Assembly (NCBI RefSeq): GCF_027912495.1
Contig: NZ_CP115463.1
Location: forward strand, 1,077,501-1,141,500
Direction of reading: 5' to 3'
DNA: 64,000 nt
DNA from: Caulobacter sp. NIBR1757
GTDB taxonomy: Bacteria > Pseudomonadota > Alphaproteobacteria > Caulobacterales > Caulobacteraceae
The notes beneath the pieces were generated by a model. The model saw nothing but the letters and a program-made list of their open reading frames with translations, ran no database searches and was not told the origin of the DNA. How positions within the stretch are numbered: the first letter of the stretch is position 1; the number at the start of each line of letters is the position of its first letter. Both the position numbers and the translations under genes were made by a program. Shown here in pieces: positions 8,155 to 42,560 of the stretch.

Positions 8155-9345
<1,191 letters not shown>

Positions 9346-32308: not shown

Positions 32309-32375
32309 GGCCGCCCCTTGCGGAACCGACCCGGCGGTGTTACCTGCCCGGCCTTCAAACGGAGTGAAGCCGAAG

Positions 32376-32459
32376 ATGTCGTGGTCCCTGGACCAGTTCT
32401 GTGCAGTCGAACCGGCGGCGAAAGCCGACGGCGCCGCCTCGTACGCGCTCGACAACTGA
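32376..32459 (+). CDS. Short ORF 1 upstream of divergent EF-Tu (27 aa)
   Basis: A 27-codon ORF, MSWSLDQFCAVEPAAKADGA at the start and ending in YALDN. It has an ACGGAG ribosome-binding site 11 bases upstream and is followed by a hairpin and a strong terminator. It shares FxAVxP near residues 8-13 with the second short ORF downstream, which argues that both are real and related. No signal peptide or known family was recognised. It could be a leader peptide, a small regulatory protein or a peptide precursor; no modification enzymes are nearby. Confidence 0.5.
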   Translation: MSWSLDQFCAVEPAAKADGAASYALDN

Positions 32460-32472
32460 CGCCTCGCCAATA

Positions 32473-32498
32473 GTCGGCAAGGCGAAACGCCTTCCGAC
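32473..32498 (+). promoter_or_regulatory. Hairpin after short ORF 1, mutually exclusive with an upstream pairing
   Basis: GTCGG-C-AAGGCG (32473-32484) pairs with CGCCTTCCGAC (32488-32498), 11 pairs with one bulge. Bases 32477-32484 can instead pair with CGCCTCGCC at 32460-32468, so two alternative folds are possible. A terminator follows at once. This resembles leader-peptide attenuators, but the switch is an inference. Confidence 0.45.
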
Positions 32499-32508
32499 CC
32501 GTCGAAAG

Positions 32509-32540
32509 ACCCCGGATGGCGCCAGCCTCCGGGGTTTTTT
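32509..32540 (+). terminator. Strong intrinsic terminator 1 (after short ORF 1)
   Basis: ACCCCGGA-T-GGC pairs with GCC-TCCGGGGT (11 pairs, one bulge), followed by five further T residues. One of the best terminators in the window. Confidence 0.92.
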
Positions 32541-32706: not shown

Positions 32707-32728
32707 GCTGGGGGTTCCGGGCCGCATC

Positions 32729-32761
32729 AGGCTCGCGAGCTCCCGGCTCGCGAGCCTTTTT
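32729..32761 (+). terminator. Strong intrinsic terminator 2 (before divergent EF-Tu)
   Basis: AGGCTCGCGAG (32729-32739) pairs perfectly with CTCGCGAGCCT (32747-32757) and is followed by a T tract. It lies 103 bases upstream of the EF-Tu paralogue start. Confidence 0.92.
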
Positions 32762-32864
32762 CGTTTTGGGCATCCGCCCGAACCCGTTCCCGGGACGCCG
32801 GGATTTCCCAGCCTTCCGGTGTTGGCCGCACCGGGAGGCGAACCACAGGCAGAAAGAAAGACCA

Positions 32865-34052
32865 ATGCCTATCAAGACCCACCTCAACGTCGGCACCATC
32901 GGTCACGTCGACCATGGCAAGACCACCCTGACGGCCGCCCTCACCCAGGTGCAGGCGGCCCGCTTTGGCGGTCAGGCCCTGTCGTTCGATCAGATCGACA
33001 AGGCGCCGGAGGAAAAGGCCCGCGGCATCACCATCAACACCACGCACGTGGAGTATGAGTCCGAGGCCCGCCACTACGCCCACATCGACTGCCCCGGGCA
33101 CGCCGACTATGTGAAGAACATGATCACCGGCGCCTCGCAGATGGACGGCGCCATCCTGCTCGTCGACGCCACCAAGGGCGCCGCCAAGCAGACCATCGAG
33201 CACGTGCTCCTGGCCCGCCAGGTCGGGGTTCGGCACATGGTCGTGTTCGTCAACAAGATGGACATGCTCGCCGAAGACGAGCGGGACGACATGAAGGCGA
33301 TCATCCAGCTGGAGACCGGCGACCTGCTGGCCAGCCAGGGCTACGAGGACGCCGCCTTCGTGTTCGGCAGCGCGCTCAAGGCGCTGGACGCGGTCAAGCG
33401 GGGCGATCTCGACGACCCGGACGTGGCCGCCATCGGCGAACTGGTCGCCGCGCTTGACGCGACGATCCCCGACCCGGTGCGCGACTTCGACGGGCCGTTC
33501 CTGATGCCGATCGAAGGGGTGCACACCATCCCGGGGCGCGGCACGGTCGTTTCCGGCCGGGTCGAGCGCGGGGTGCTGAAGATCGGCGACGCCGTCGAGA
33601 TCATCGGTCTCGACAACGACGGCGCCGAGGTCATCGTCACCGGCACCCAGGCCTTCCGGAAGAACATTCCGGAAGCCCGGGCCGGGATGAACGTCGGCCT
33701 GCTGCTGCGGGGCCTCAAGCGTGACGAGGTGACCCGTGGCCAGGTGCTCAGCGCGCCGGGCGCGGTCACCGCCCACACCAGGGGCCGGGCCCAGGTCTTC
33801 GTCCTGACGCCGGACGAGGGCGGGCGGCACACGCCGTTCGGGGCCGGCTATCGCCCGCAGCTGTTCTTCGGGGTCACCGACGTCACCGGCGTCCTTAACC
33901 CTGAAGACGGTGTGCAGGTGAACCCGGGCGACCGGGCCGAGATCGGCTTCGAACTGATGAAGCCGGTCGGCATCGAGCCGGGCGTGCGCTTCGCCATCCG
34001 TGAGGGTGGCCGCACGGTCGGCGCGGGCATCGTGACCGAGGTGACGGCCTAG
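32865..34052 (+). CDS. Divergent EF-Tu paralogue (translational GTPase)
   Basis: A 395-residue protein of full EF-Tu length with all three domains. GTPase motifs are intact: GHVDHGKT (13-20), DCPGHADY (75-82), NKMD (130-133), and catalytic His in CPGHAD. Compared with the canonical copy at 8155, near-invariant segments differ. PIEDVFSIS is PIEGVHTIP (E217-G218, H220), altering the residue equivalent to E. coli Asp216 in the aminoacyl pocket. YFRTTDV is FFGVTDV, replacing the equivalents of Arg333-Thr334. GPMPQTREH is GAAKQTIEH. It lacks a strong ribosome-binding site and a clear promoter of its own. It is likely a specialised or conditionally used EF-Tu; loss of function is unlikely given the intact motifs. 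Confidence 0.93.
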
Positions 34053-39424: not shown

Positions 39425-42400
39425 TCACTCGTCTGGAACAACGAAAAATCATATCGACTCGCCTGGATGCTGCCGCCTACGAAGTCAGCAAGCGCTCTCC
39501 AGTCACAACTTCCTCGATAGACGCTGCCAATCTAGGATTCGATAGCCTCAACGAGTCCACAAGTTCCATTTCCTTGCGAAGCAGCTTGTTACGGACCAAG
39601 TCGCCACGCGAGACGTTTCTTTGGCTTGTTGATCTTGCACGGTGTCGGCCCCCATGCCCTTCAAGCCAAACTTGAAAAGCGAAGATCGCCCCGGCGAATG
39701 CAGTCTGATCATTATCCAGGGATTCAAAGGCAGCTAGCCAAGCGTCCTCTGGAATATAGCCTGCAGGCCGGCGCGAAACGGAAGCCGCTTCAAATGGCGG
39801 CAAGCTGAAGCCTACCGAGCCGAATACGCGCAACGCAGCCACTCTGCGAGAGAGAGGAAATGCCACATTATCCAAGAGATGCTGATACATCTCGCTTGCA
39901 TAAAGCGCCAAACCTGAGAGCGCGCCGATGTCTTCTAAACTTCCAGCAAGCTCCGCCTTCAAGAACAACTCTATTCCGTGAGTTCTAATCAGATCTTCAC
40001 TGATCACTCCATACCACGACCATTGTAGTTCGACAAAGCGGCGTGTTCTTTTGGCTCTGTCCAATATTTCGCTTTTTGTATCTTTTAATACTTCATCTCT
40101 TGTCGCCCGGTGAGCAAATCCGCCCCGATGAATACGTGATCTGTCGTTAACTCCTTGTAGAGCGCGAACTGCAATCCTAGAAAGAGCGTCGTTCTCAGAA
40201 AGCACAGCGTCCTTAAACATTTTAACCGCTTGGCTTTGCAAAAATACCTGTCGATCACGGCTGCTTTCCAAGGCCATAGATATATTTGAAAATGAAACAA
40301 AATTACCCTTTAAAGCAAGCTCGGTGGCCCCAGAAAACAGAGCGCTAAGCGCATCCTTTACTGCTGCTTCGCTCGGGCTCAAATATTCCATCGACTTTGC
40401 GAGAAAGGAAAGTATGGCTTGCTTCTGTAACGAAGACGACGCCGAAGCAGACCATTCAATCAAAATATTGATGGCTTCTTGTTGGCGCCTCGCGTTGCGA
40501 TAAGTTTTCAACTGCAGTGCTAAGTGGGTGACAACATCCCATTCTTTACGCACTATCCGAGGTTTCATATATTTCAGTAGTTGTGCAACCGTGTCGAATT
40601 TGTCGTCTATACTGCGAGAGAAAAAATACTCGAGAAAAGTTTGGTGTGTAAAGGCGAAGACTCGATCGCCGACCTCCGTCATAACCCATGCGCGCCCCAC
40701 TAAAAATTCTAGTAACGATCGCGCCGCAGCAATTGCCTTTGAGCGGTTTTCGTAGAGCGCGCCGAAGTACTGTCTCAACTCGGTTTCAAGCCATTGTCGC
40801 TCGACCCCGGCGGATAGCTTTGGGTCGCCATAAACGCGGGCTGCTATCTCGCTGAAAAGCTGCAATCTGTCGAAATCATCTGGCAGGTCGGGAAGAATTC
40901 CGCGATCAGGATCCCAGCGCTCAAACATAAGAACGGCGCACTCTCTGTAGATCTCCGGTCGATTCGACGGAATGTCTTTCTGAGAGTTGAATAGCCAAGC
41001 CATCAACCCGAGCATAAGGGGATTGCGCCTTAGATCGGCAGCATTACGCTCTGTTTGCTGAAGGAACCGTTGTGATTGGGCGGCCGCTTCGGCCTCAGTA
41101 TGCTCACCGACCACTTTGAAGAACTTCTTCGTGTATTCGGAAACTTCCGCATTGTCGAACTTCTCTAGAACGTACTCCTCATAGTCTCCAGGCATCGGTG
41201 CCGAGTCGTATCCGACGACTCGCGATGTAATTATCGAAGGGCACAGTGGGTAGAGTTCACAAAAAGCTTGAACCAAATCTACAAATTCCCGCCGACGTGA
41301 GGTTTCCAATATTTCGTCAAGCCCGTCAAAGGCAAAAACGGCCCGCCCACAGACAAAGAGATAGCTCAAAGCTTCAGATACGTCCGTAACGTCACCCGGA
41401 ACGTGTTGCCGGGTGTCTCTGACGAGATAATCGAAAAGAGACAGCTGAGGTTCTTTGACGCGAGCCTGTTCGAATTGCCTGAGAATTACCCGAAACGGAA
41501 TCTTTTGCTCGCTTTGCCCTATCTGGGGCCGATCGCCGTACTGTAGTGCGTGGAATGCATTCTTCGCCAAATCATAACATAGCCTTTGACAAAGAGTGCT
41601 CTTACCGCCGCCTGGATCACCCAGAACTACTATGCGTGAAAAGGACGCCTTCAAATCAGCAAAGGCTACTCGAGAAAGTTCGTTTTCTATTTCCTTAGGA
41701 TTCACATGAACCGCTAGACTAGCTGAGATGTTTTGTTGAGAAATGGTTGCGGGCGCGATGCCTTTGATTACACCCTCAAGATGCCGCGCGTTGCGCTGAC
41801 TCTCGCGCAGCCGAATCTTCGGTGGAATATAAATTCTGGTGATATCAACGTTTCGAGCGCCCTTGTTTGTCTCGACCCGCACATTCTTGTAAGAATTCTG
41901 TAGTCCTTTTGCAATCTTCGCCAGGGTTGGATTCAGAGACTCGAATGTGTGCTGAGGGCGATTAGGAAGGCGCAATGAAGACAGCGCAGCGTCGAGGGCG
42001 CTGAGGCGGTTGCTTATTTCCTTATGGTGAGCAGACAGTAAGGCATGGACAGATTTATCTTTAGAGAGCTCGGCAAACGTAGTCGAGAACGATATCATTA
42101 AGCTTTCGAATAGAGTAAAACACTTACCGTCATCTTGAGGGAGAAAGCGATAGTACATCTCGGAGAACGTGGGCTTTAGCGCTTCCCCGTCGGCAGATAG
42201 AAGCGCGTGCTGGATCATTGCATCGGCCAAGCCCGATTTAGCGAGTTCATCAAGAAATGCTGACACGCTCTGAGTTAGCTCGCCTCGGTAGGTACCGAGA
42301 ACAATCTCAAAATCCGAGAAGGCCGTTTTGACAAGAGCACTCTTGGCCGGAATGTTCTTCAGAGCACTATCTATTTTTCGGAGGCGGAGTGCCTTCTGCA

Positions 42401-42560
42401 TTGTGAGTGAGAATGCGCGTTGCATTCCCGCTGACAGGACTTTGGTTAGAATAGCGGACATGGCACCCATTTTCCCAATCTCCGCGCAAGCTTGTGTTTA
42501 AAATAGTGAGTTAGTCAATGTGAACGTGTGGTGACGGTGGAGTTCACGGGGGCGAATATG
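39405..42560. mobile_element. Low-GC genomic islet carrying the NACHT gene
   Basis: Composition falls sharply at about 39405 and recovers at about 42560, just inside the stop of uvrB's neighbour region. No integrase, transposase or convincing terminal repeats were seen, so the mechanism of insertion is unknown. Limits are approximate. Confidence 0.55.
39477..42470 (-). CDS. NACHT-domain NTPase, probable antiphage NLR-like protein
   Basis: A 997-residue protein. The NTPase has Walker A GDPGGGKST (284-292) and Walker B FAFDGLDEIL (380-389), the DGLDE form typical of NACHT. Then come the IITSRVVGYD sensor region and the RRNPLMLGLMAWLF and FTHQTFLEYFFS segments of the winged-helix part. The 280 N-terminal residues are helical and of unknown type; the C-terminal 350 are helical without clear repeats and would be the sensor. 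Bacterial NACHT proteins are known antiphage STAND-type defences. G+C and codon use are far below the neighbours, a sign of transfer. No partner gene is visible. An alternative ATG is at 42461. Confidence 0.88.
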   Translation of the reverse strand: MGAMSAILTKVLSAGMQRAFSLTMQKALRLRKIDSALKNIPAKSALVKTAFSDFEIVLGTYRGELTQSVSAFLDELAKSGLADAMIQHALLSADGEALKPTFSEMYYRFLPQDDGKCFTLFESLMISFSTTFAELSKDKSVHALLSAHHKEISNRLSALDAALSSLRLPNRPQHTFESLNPTLAKIAKGLQNSYKNVRVETNKGARNVDITRIYIPPKIRLRESQRNARHLEGVIKGIAPATISQQNISASLAVHVNPKEIENELSRVAFADLKASFSRIVVLGDPGGGKSTLCQRLCYDLAKNAFHALQYGDRPQIGQSEQKIPFRVILRQFEQARVKEPQLSLFDYLVRDTRQHVPGDVTDVSEALSYLFVCGRAVFAFDGLDEILETSRRREFVDLVQAFCELYPLCPSIITSRVVGYDSAPMPGDYEEYVLEKFDNAEVSEYTKKFFKVVGEHTEAEAAAQSQRFLQQTERNAADLRRNPLMLGLMAWLFNSQKDIPSNRPEIYRECAVLMFERWDPDRGILPDLPDDFDRLQLFSEIAARVYGDPKLSAGVERQWLETELRQYFGALYENRSKAIAAARSLLEFLVGRAWVMTEVGDRVFAFTHQTFLEYFFSRSIDDKFDTVAQLLKYMKPRIVRKEWDVVTHLALQLKTYRNARRQQEAINILIEWSASASSSLQKQAILSFLAKSMEYLSPSEAAVKDALSALFSGATELALKGNFVSFSNISMALESSRDRQVFLQSQAVKMFKDAVLSENDALSRIAVRALQGVNDRSRIHRGGFAHRATRDEVLKDTKSEILDRAKRTRRFVELQWSWYGVISEDLIRTHGIELFLKAELAGSLEDIGALSGLALYASEMYQHLLDNVAFPLSRRVAALRVFGSVGFSLPPFEAASVSRRPAGYIPEDAWLAAFESLDNDQTAFAGAIFAFQVWLEGHGGRHRARSTSQRNVSRGDLVRNKLLRKEMELVDSLRLSNPRLAASIEEVVTGERLLTS

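Follow-up and report, generated by a model that had tools for sequence, protein, structure and literature searches.

A deeply diverged second EF-Tu gene in Caulobacter sp. NIBR1757: a likely reserve elongation factor behind a predicted translation-speed attenuator

Second, diverged copies of elongation factor Tu (EF-Tu) are known from Streptomyces, where tuf3 encodes EF-Tu3, described in the available portions of two sources as stress-expressed and GE2270A-resistant (PMC12309360, PMC4342817). Going by the titles of papers cited in those portions, tuf3 is also inessential, resistant to three classes of EF-Tu inhibitor and under stringent control (PMC12309360, PMC4342817). In the available text of a 2015 survey of translational GTPases, actEF-Tu2 is the only bacterial EF-Tu-like subfamily clearly distinct from EF-Tu (PMC4342817). 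Here we describe a 64,000-nucleotide stretch of Caulobacter sp. NIBR1757 (NZ_CP115463.1, positions 1,077,501 to 1,141,500; hereafter the window), which carries a canonical EF-Tu gene and a second, diverged one that we call tuf2, encoding protein P0002 (EF-Tu2). With a probability of about 0.52, we read tuf2 as belonging to a deeply diverged EF-Tu lineage that likely serves as a reserve elongation factor, and its leader RNA as predicted to turn the gene on when ribosomes slow. The nearest known case appears to be Streptomyces tuf3, likewise a second, diverged EF-Tu, which we compared by description only; our 11 named control genomes include no Streptomyces. An EF-Tu on a Streptomyces plasmid (L210), considered as a possible tuf3, was rejected, as it has the canonical R333, E259 and Y160. 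According to the part of the survey available, tuf3 is restricted to some Actinomycetales (PMC4342817), whereas the tuf2 lineage occurs in Proteobacteria, Myxococcota, Acidobacteriota and phages. Stringent control of tuf3 is given by title, whereas tuf2 has an attenuator-like leader in many Proteobacteria.

Canonical EF-Tu (tufA/tufB, TIGR00485) shares its domains and GTPase residues with P0002, which differs by its low identity (55%), its separate clade, the changes R333G, E259Q and Y160Q, a remodelled aminoacyl pocket and a leader of its own. Two engineered EF-Tu variants have altered pockets as well: in the portion of the source at hand, EF-Sep carries H67R, E216N, D217G, F219Y, T229S and N274W, and EF-pY carries E216V, D217G and F219G (precursor numbering; PMC6386890). 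P0002 is natural and resembles them at D217G, T229S and in having some change at F219, whereas H67, E216 and N274 are unchanged; the likeness is one of sequence positions only (three of six changed). Huge phages encode elongation factors G, Tu and Ts, and the accessible part of that report offers a role of phage EF-Tu in keeping up translation during infection as a hypothesis only (Al-Shayeb et al. 2020, PMC7162821). That part describes neither a bacterial lineage in common nor a leader; phage EF-Tu genes share the R333G lineage with the bacterial copies described here, and the window copy is chromosomal and has a leader.

The initial annotation had described P0002 as a full-length paralogue that keeps the GTP-binding motifs and the His of CPGHAD, and this holds: the 395-residue ORF (open reading frame) is intact, and all 13 GTPase-related residues that we looked at are kept, H84 among them (E. 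coli numbering). The three diverged segments that it had listed, EDVFSIS to EGVHTIP, FRTTDV to FGVTDV and GPMPQTREH to GAAKQTIEH, are all found in P0002, and the canonical EF-Tu gene lies where it had been placed (Table 1); a second canonical copy is present elsewhere in the genome. P0002 is identical to canonical EF-Tu at 216 of 393 positions, and with 524.7 bits it scores barely above the cut-off of the NCBIfam EF-Tu model TIGR00485 (522.4). Its three domains and a score over the curated cut-off make it a member of the EF-Tu superfamily. It does not belong to canonical tufA/tufB: in a careful tree of 48 rows, the 13 canonical and the 35 lineage rows form two groups split at 100/100 support, P0002 lying on the side opposite the canonical clade, and a quick tree of 102 rows gives the same split (SH-aLRT 99). 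Seven orthologue pairs have ratios of nonsynonymous to synonymous substitution rates (dN/dS, NG86) of 0.068-0.192 rather than near 1. tuf2 belongs to an old EF-Tu lineage, distinct from canonical EF-Tu and under purifying selection; P0002, which keeps the GTPase residues of a working EF-Tu, is predicted to deliver aminoacyl-tRNA.

The lineage extends well past the Caulobacterales clade that the initial annotation had envisaged. A protein search scored at least 7,999 candidates, and the 120 listed (P0002 included) are 79-100% identical; the named organisms among the matches listed are mostly Alphaproteobacteria (Caulobacter, Phenylobacterium, Asticcacaulis, Sphingomonas, Sphingopyxis, Hyphomonadaceae), along with one metagenome-assembled genome labelled Hydrogenophilaceae. 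When one genome per species was scanned with a fragment specific to the clade, 169 relatives were obtained; the best 80 represent Alpha-, Beta- and Gammaproteobacteria, Myxococcota, Acidobacteriota and others; six full-length rows among these 80 group with canonical EF-Tu instead. The lineage occurs in several bacterial phyla and also on large phage contigs. P0002 clusters with Caulobacter ginsengisoli (100/99), and the next to join are Sphingomonas and Reyranella (97/90), not Asticcacaulis, a placement that points to transfer. Outside its own genome, tuf2 is patchy: it occurs in 2 of 36 same-genus genomes, some of them drafts, and of 384 other alphaproteobacterial genomes one has it at E <= 1e-150. 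Of the 16 genomes searched, 14 have a full-length canonical EF-Tu as well; of the remaining two, both drafts, G447 has a partial canonical gene and G451 none, probably owing to assembly gaps. No paper on the tuf2 lineage or its leader was found in the open-licence literature.

We compared inhibitor sites in an alignment on E. coli TufA numbering of 69 lineage rows (55 bacterial and 14 phage) and 22 canonical rows. Of 80 genome loci and 22 viral loci, seven partial rows and 16 rows removed by hand (near-duplicates; L083, L091, L156) were left out of this alignment and of the quick tree; the site counts also omit six bacterial and five phage rows placed with canonical EF-Tu. Viral locus L052 was not included, and canonical loci L179 and L189 were skipped. 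At position 333, which we, like the initial annotation, take to be a pulvomycin site, Gly stands in 69/69 lineage rows and Arg in 22/22 canonical rows. Position 160, presumably a site of kirromycin resistance, is Tyr in 21 of the 22 canonical rows. Of the 69 lineage rows three keep Tyr and 66 have a replacement, which is Gln in 42, His in 19, Arg in 2, Asn and Met in one each (65 together) and Phe in the last. Position 259 is Glu in all 22 canonical rows and Gln in 66 of 69 lineage rows. In the available portion of the source, GE2270A contacts D216, R223, T256, G257, E259, F261, R262, N273, G275 and other residues, and is locked in by the R223-E259 salt bridge (PMC8183687). P0002 is changed at D216, F218, S219, T228, R333 and T334, which bears out the earlier claim for the equivalents of D216, R333 and T334, and it keeps L120, Q124, G316, Q329, A375, V226, G257, G275, R230 and T382. 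R262 is retained as Arg in P0002 and is His in 35 of the 69 lineage rows.

The kirromycin sites L120, Q124 and A375 and the GE2270 sites G257 and G275 had been reported as kept, which is right for these residues but, for kirromycin sites as a whole, only in part, Y160 being Gln. This change and that of the salt-bridge residue E259, also Gln, had been overlooked. The changes are not scattered among orthologues: among P0002 and its 119 best homologues listed, R333G occurs in 120/120, F218H in 116/120 and T228S in 114/120. Throughout the 69 lineage rows H22, G23, K24, T61, D80, H84, N135, K136 and D138 are kept, as are K89 and N90, which we take to be tRNA contacts. The sites for GE2270A (E259Q, and here D216G), pulvomycin (R333G) and kirromycin (Y160Q) are altered, and on this pattern we predict inhibitor tolerance.

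Attenuators of the trp type combine a small ORF (sORF), competing hairpins and a terminator. The leader of the Bacillus resistance gene vmlR is built in this way as well and, in the part of the source available, precedes a gene that aids translation under inhibition (PMC9226507). The region upstream of tuf2 is alike in these respects; it differs in preceding an elongation factor gene, in its tandem modules and in its first small ORF, sORF1, which is mostly 27 or 30 codons long and shows little sequence conservation. The order small ORF, hairpin, terminator is conserved before tuf2 in Alpha-, Beta- and some Gammaproteobacteria. The terminator has the form ACCC(T/C)GGATGGC..GCCTCC(A/G)GGGTTTT, with a betaproteobacterial version ACCCGGTAGGCC..GCCACCGGGTTTT, and in many loci a second, differently worded module doubles the first (the window's elements are listed in Table 1). 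The tuf2-proximal terminator mostly ends about 105-145 nt before tuf2. We surveyed 49 loci, namely the window and 48 full-length loci (L074-L122; L110 and L121 are from Myxococcota), and found the attenuator-1 terminator form in 38. A strict sORF rule (25-34 codons, a Shine-Dalgarno-like site, stop codon 41-62 nt before the terminator) is satisfied at 26 of these 38 sites, where 200 mononucleotide shuffles give 0.67 on average and never more than 3; the translatable small ORF at a fixed place before the terminator that marks a leader-peptide attenuator is therefore present at these 26 sites. Their sORFs are 27 codons (12 sites), 30 codons (12 sites), 25 and 26 codons long. The B segment of the hairpin begins 12-24 nt past the stop codon (median 15, 37 sites).

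Table 1. Positions of tuf2, its leader elements and the canonical EF-Tu gene in the window.
Feature	Position	Strand	Remark
Leader sORF1, 27 codons (MSWSLDQFCAVEPAAKADGAASYALDN)	32376..32459	+	length conserved across loci
Attenuator 1, pre-terminator hairpin (holds the B:C pairing)	32473..32498	+	
Attenuator 1, terminator ACCCCGGATGGC..GCCTCCGGGGTTTTTT	32509..32540	+	
Leader sORF2, 33 codons	32578..32679	+	the corresponding sORF has 34 codons in L074 and 36 codons in L075
Attenuator 2, A:B hairpin, beginning immediately after the sORF2 stop codon	32680..32706	+	
Attenuator 2, segment C, a possible pairing partner for the 3' half of the A:B hairpin	32710..32720	+	masked fold
Attenuator 2, terminator	32729..32761	+	supported by its conserved place, since one such site per shuffle is expected by chance
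5'-untranslated region (5'-UTR) hairpin, loop TTGGCCG	32812..32838	+	window fold; likely counterpart of the covarying element in related leaders
tuf2, diverged second EF-Tu (P0002)	32865..34052	+	395 aa and stop, uninterrupted translation; three Pfam EF-Tu domains
Gln codon at the E. coli Y160 position	33336..33338	+	site alignment
Aminoacyl pocket segment (D216G, F218H, S219T, T228S)	33516..33554	+	site alignment and homologue listing
Gln codon at E. coli E259	33648..33650	+	site alignment; partner in the R223-E259 salt bridge over GE2270A (PMC8183687, available portion)
Gly codon at E. coli R333	33870..33872	+	homologue listing 120/120; alignment 69/69
Canonical EF-Tu (comparison)	8155..9345	+	

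A strict form of the terminator pattern has a single match in the 4.47-Mb genome of the strain. Among 385 alphaproteobacterial genomes it matches two, the strain's own and G151, and precisely these two carry tuf2 at E <= 1e-150. Among 60 genomes of the family, three match: its own, G477, which has a tuf2 82% identical downstream of the pattern, and G470. Neither G151 nor G477 had been used in writing the pattern. With a looser expression, 37 matches fall in 32,776 nt upstream of tuf2 versus two in 1.74 Mb elsewhere, both of which are the reverse strand of the same sites. The 5'-UTR hairpin nearest the gene covaries in 22 related leaders: 85% of cells are paired versus 32-42% with slid partners, the covariation score is 0.523 versus at most 0.148, and 44 cells hold double changes versus at most 21. 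The window was not included in this alignment, and the structure was derived from the same sequences. In related leaders the loop of this hairpin, which lies before the tuf2 Shine-Dalgarno site, is itself palindromic (TGGCCA, TGATCA, TAGCTA), and a conserved TTGGCGCGCCAA palindrome also precedes that site (e.g. L080, 9260-9389); the window keeps the hairpin with a TTGGCCG loop, and a palindrome of the TTGGCGCGCCAA type was not seen there. Just 5' of sORF1 we noted a TGTTA(T/C)-like motif (window 32337-32348) that recurs in several leaders and may be a -10 promoter element.

The leader offers five segments, A to E, that permit the pairings A:B, B:C, C:D and the terminator D:E. We examined pairing per sequence, because the segments shift between rows in the MAFFT alignment; on that alignment RNAalifold found five pairs in attenuator 1, none with double changes. 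Modelling a ribosome that sits on the stop codon gives B:C pairing in 37/37 nascent A-C transcripts (L074 was not parsed). When A-D transcripts are free, D is paired upstream in 37 of 38. Pairing A:B outperforms shuffled A segments (p <= 0.05) at 20 of 38 sites, the corresponding number for C:D being 11 of 38, and in the window's attenuator 2 masking of A lets the B:C helix form. From these pairings we propose that transcription would start near sORF1. In normal growth the ribosome would keep pace, sit at the sORF stop codon and cover segment A, so that B:C and D:E would pair and the terminator would end transcription. Under slow elongation the ribosome would lag behind, A:B and C:D would pair, the terminator could not form and tuf2 would be transcribed. 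Because its length is steady and its sequence poorly conserved, sORF1 would act as a ruler of elongation speed rather than as a sensor of a single amino acid. Since the GE2270A, pulvomycin and kirromycin sites are altered, EF-Tu2 could then replace EF-Tu1 when the latter is inhibited. The leader would thus be a translation-speed attenuator releasing a backup EF-Tu, both the induction and the direction of the switch being predicted.

Several observations weigh against this proposal. The attenuator-1 terminator form is missing from 11 of the 49 loci, although eight of these have another terminator-like site, and the strict sORF rule fails at 12 of the 38 sites, which are themselves related rather than independent (12 come from Variovorax and its kin). 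At 26-36 codons sORF2 is variable, which weakens the ruler idea for its module. Thirteen 27-codon peptides have a mean identity of 18% versus 8% for shuffled residues, and aromatic residues are concentrated towards the ends of 18 hand-picked peptides (26/126 versus 20/357), 16 of which have one among their last eight residues; peptide- or codon-specific stalling at the sORF is possible. When the ribosome is absent and A is free, only 12 of 37 nascent A-C transcripts form A:B whereas 25 form B:C, and with a ribosome on the stop codon D is still paired upstream in 30 of 38 A-D transcripts. The alternative pairings exist, but equilibrium folds settle neither the switch nor its direction, so the model needs co-transcriptional kinetics. 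As for specificity, the strict pattern in G470 follows an apparent rplQ (by eye) beside rpoA, with no EF-Tu inside the 3-kb locus, and the looser expression and part of the 5'-UTR hairpin were written from the leaders themselves. By eye, no sORF-attenuator leader was seen in 15 upstream regions of phage and non-proteobacterial relatives (phage, Acidobacteriota, Nannocystis), so the leader cannot define the tuf2 family; those of L157, L160 and L165 lie within tRNA arrays, and a plain terminator is present in L121, L125 and L145. On the protein side, E259Q is a conservative change, the roles of R333 and Y160 are presumed ones, and the changes at D216 and F218 in most lineage rows favour a selective carrier, discussed below.

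Scans of viral contigs recovered EF-Tu genes of the tuf2 lineage on contigs of up to 497 kb. Phage and bacterial rows are interleaved, and the starred branches of the 48-row tree force at least four changes of phage label. ARAGORN found 3-42 tRNA or tmRNA genes in the scanned stretches of lineage phage loci (L039 was not in the scan), for instance 39 in L156, 40 including a tmRNA in L160, 42 in L163 and three each in L164 and L167, and most phage relatives sit amid tRNA genes of many specificities. Directly downstream of the EF-Tu gene in L154 lies a gene for a T4-type single-strand DNA binding protein, a gp32 homologue (phrog_224, E 1.3e-63); this T4-like phage contig, the same as that of L038, combines the EF-Tu and gp32 genes with nine tRNA genes and a doubtful tmRNA. 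Only 4 of 10 tested phage-locus ORFs matched a PHROGs family, so several contigs count as phage by virtue of their IMG/VR label and their tRNA arrays. In the phage and plasmid collections searched by protein, no record was 60% or more identical to P0002, and many matches were canonical EF-Tu; several 'phage' records (H1-H15) carry an EF-Tu 55-58% identical to P0002 under host-species names, and the canonical EF-Tu in such records is probably host DNA. A replaced switch I (AKGGRD..KTVT for DxAPEEKxRGIT) occurs in L157, L158, L159, L160, L162 and L167 on the lineage side and in L168, L170 and L171 on the canonical side. It covers the bond within switch I that we take to be the cut site of the Lit protease, and is carried by two separate parts of the tree. 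Within 20 kb, L168 and L170 of this second phage EF-Tu group have 14 and 15 tRNA genes, only for Leu, Ser, Tyr and Phe and mostly with a long variable arm.

Could P0002 instead be a selective carrier, its remodelled pocket (D216G, F218H, S219T, T228S, E272M) suited to a subset of aminoacyl-tRNAs, perhaps those with bulky or negatively charged residues? Three of the six EF-Sep positions are changed, D217G and T229S identically and F219 to His rather than Tyr (precursor numbering; PMC6386890, available portion), and the pocket changes are common. D216 is changed in 53 of the 69 lineage rows (kept in 16) and F218 in 59 (His in 47, kept in 10), both changes extending beyond the alpha/beta branch; at position 272, 49 rows have Met and 8 have Leu. 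The 29 alphaproteobacterial rows have D216G/A in 29, F218H in 26, T228S in 25 and E272M in 29. The initial annotation had asked whether the same pocket changes recur across the clade, and the answer is mixed: D216 and F218 are widely changed, yet T228S is found in 31 of 69 rows, nearly all alpha and beta, with T228 kept in 38. H66, E215 and N273 are unchanged in 69/69, and the pocket is uneven where R333G and E259Q are near-universal. No aminoacyl-tRNA synthetase or other gene is shared beside tuf2 across lineages, and the window holds no tRNA gene. Since the pocket is uneven and most phage relatives lie among tRNAs of many specificities (L164 and L167 having only three tRNA genes), we disfavour a carrier role as the core function of the family and consider it doubtful, at perhaps half the weight of a reserve factor. 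Slightly less probable still, and in our view unlikely, is that some toxin or phage-defence effector inactivates canonical EF-Tu but not this lineage, bacteria keeping the spare after exchange with phages. The interleaving of phage and bacterial rows, the gp32 homologue adjoining one copy and the six lineage phage rows with switch I replaced over the presumed Lit bond are in its favour, but P0002 itself keeps G59-I60 and T382, which we take to be the Lit and Doc sites, T382 is kept in all rows, and P0002 has no PADLOC match.

The upstream terminators may also be ordinary ends of neighbouring transcripts, with incidental small ORFs and a tuf2 promoter close to the start codon. Intergenic regions often hold intrinsic terminators, one terminator-like site is expected by chance in the window stretch, and the same pattern stands behind the apparent rplQ of G470. 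Against this, terminator position and ORF length are steady across genera, the modules come in tandem, 26 of 38 sORF sites compare with 0.67 expected, and the strict pattern occurs only beside tuf2 in 385 genomes; we regard this explanation as improbable. That tuf2 is a recent decayed copy of canonical tuf is refuted by the tree separation (100/100), the low dN/dS and the intact motifs, and we give it almost no weight, even though the gene is carried by only 3 of 37 same-genus genomes sampled (own included) and is therefore dispensable. A reserve elongation factor remains our preferred reading. Of the three roles proposed by the initial annotation (selective carrier, inhibitor-tolerant EF-Tu, stress isoform like tuf3), the latter two appear to fit best, because of the family-wide changes at E259, R333 and Y160 and the conserved attenuator-like leader.

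The window had no tRNA genes and no Rfam matches at gathering scores. In the PDB, the 59 matches at E <= 1e-60 are all EF-Tu-named (engineered, ancestral, fusion and mitochondrial proteins included; best 6i8r), and none is assignable to the tuf2 lineage. Apart from shadow ORFs and generic families (kinases, for example), an all-against-all ORF comparison found no gene common to the tuf2 neighbourhoods of different lineages; most of the neighbour-ORF clusters printed lie within Nannocystis. A 997-codon ORF on the minus strand (window 39477-42470) has a P-loop, GDPGGGKST, and by eye a likeness to NACHT-type NTPases, without a PADLOC match.

A broader proposal, which we hold more tentatively and at somewhat less than even odds, is that bacteria and phages share a mobile second EF-Tu lineage as an alternative elongation system. 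Tandem leader ORFs would time global elongation, failure of EF-Tu would call up an EF-Tu that no known class of EF-Tu poison affects, and phages would carry the gene by their tRNA arrays to run their own translation. If the leader works as we propose, the bacterium would gauge its own elongation speed by means of leader ORFs and answer with a spare elongation factor. The lineage would be a second, wider bacterial EF-Tu-like subfamily distinct from EF-Tu, after actEF-Tu2, and one that connects a bacterial reserve EF-Tu with the EF-Tu of phages.

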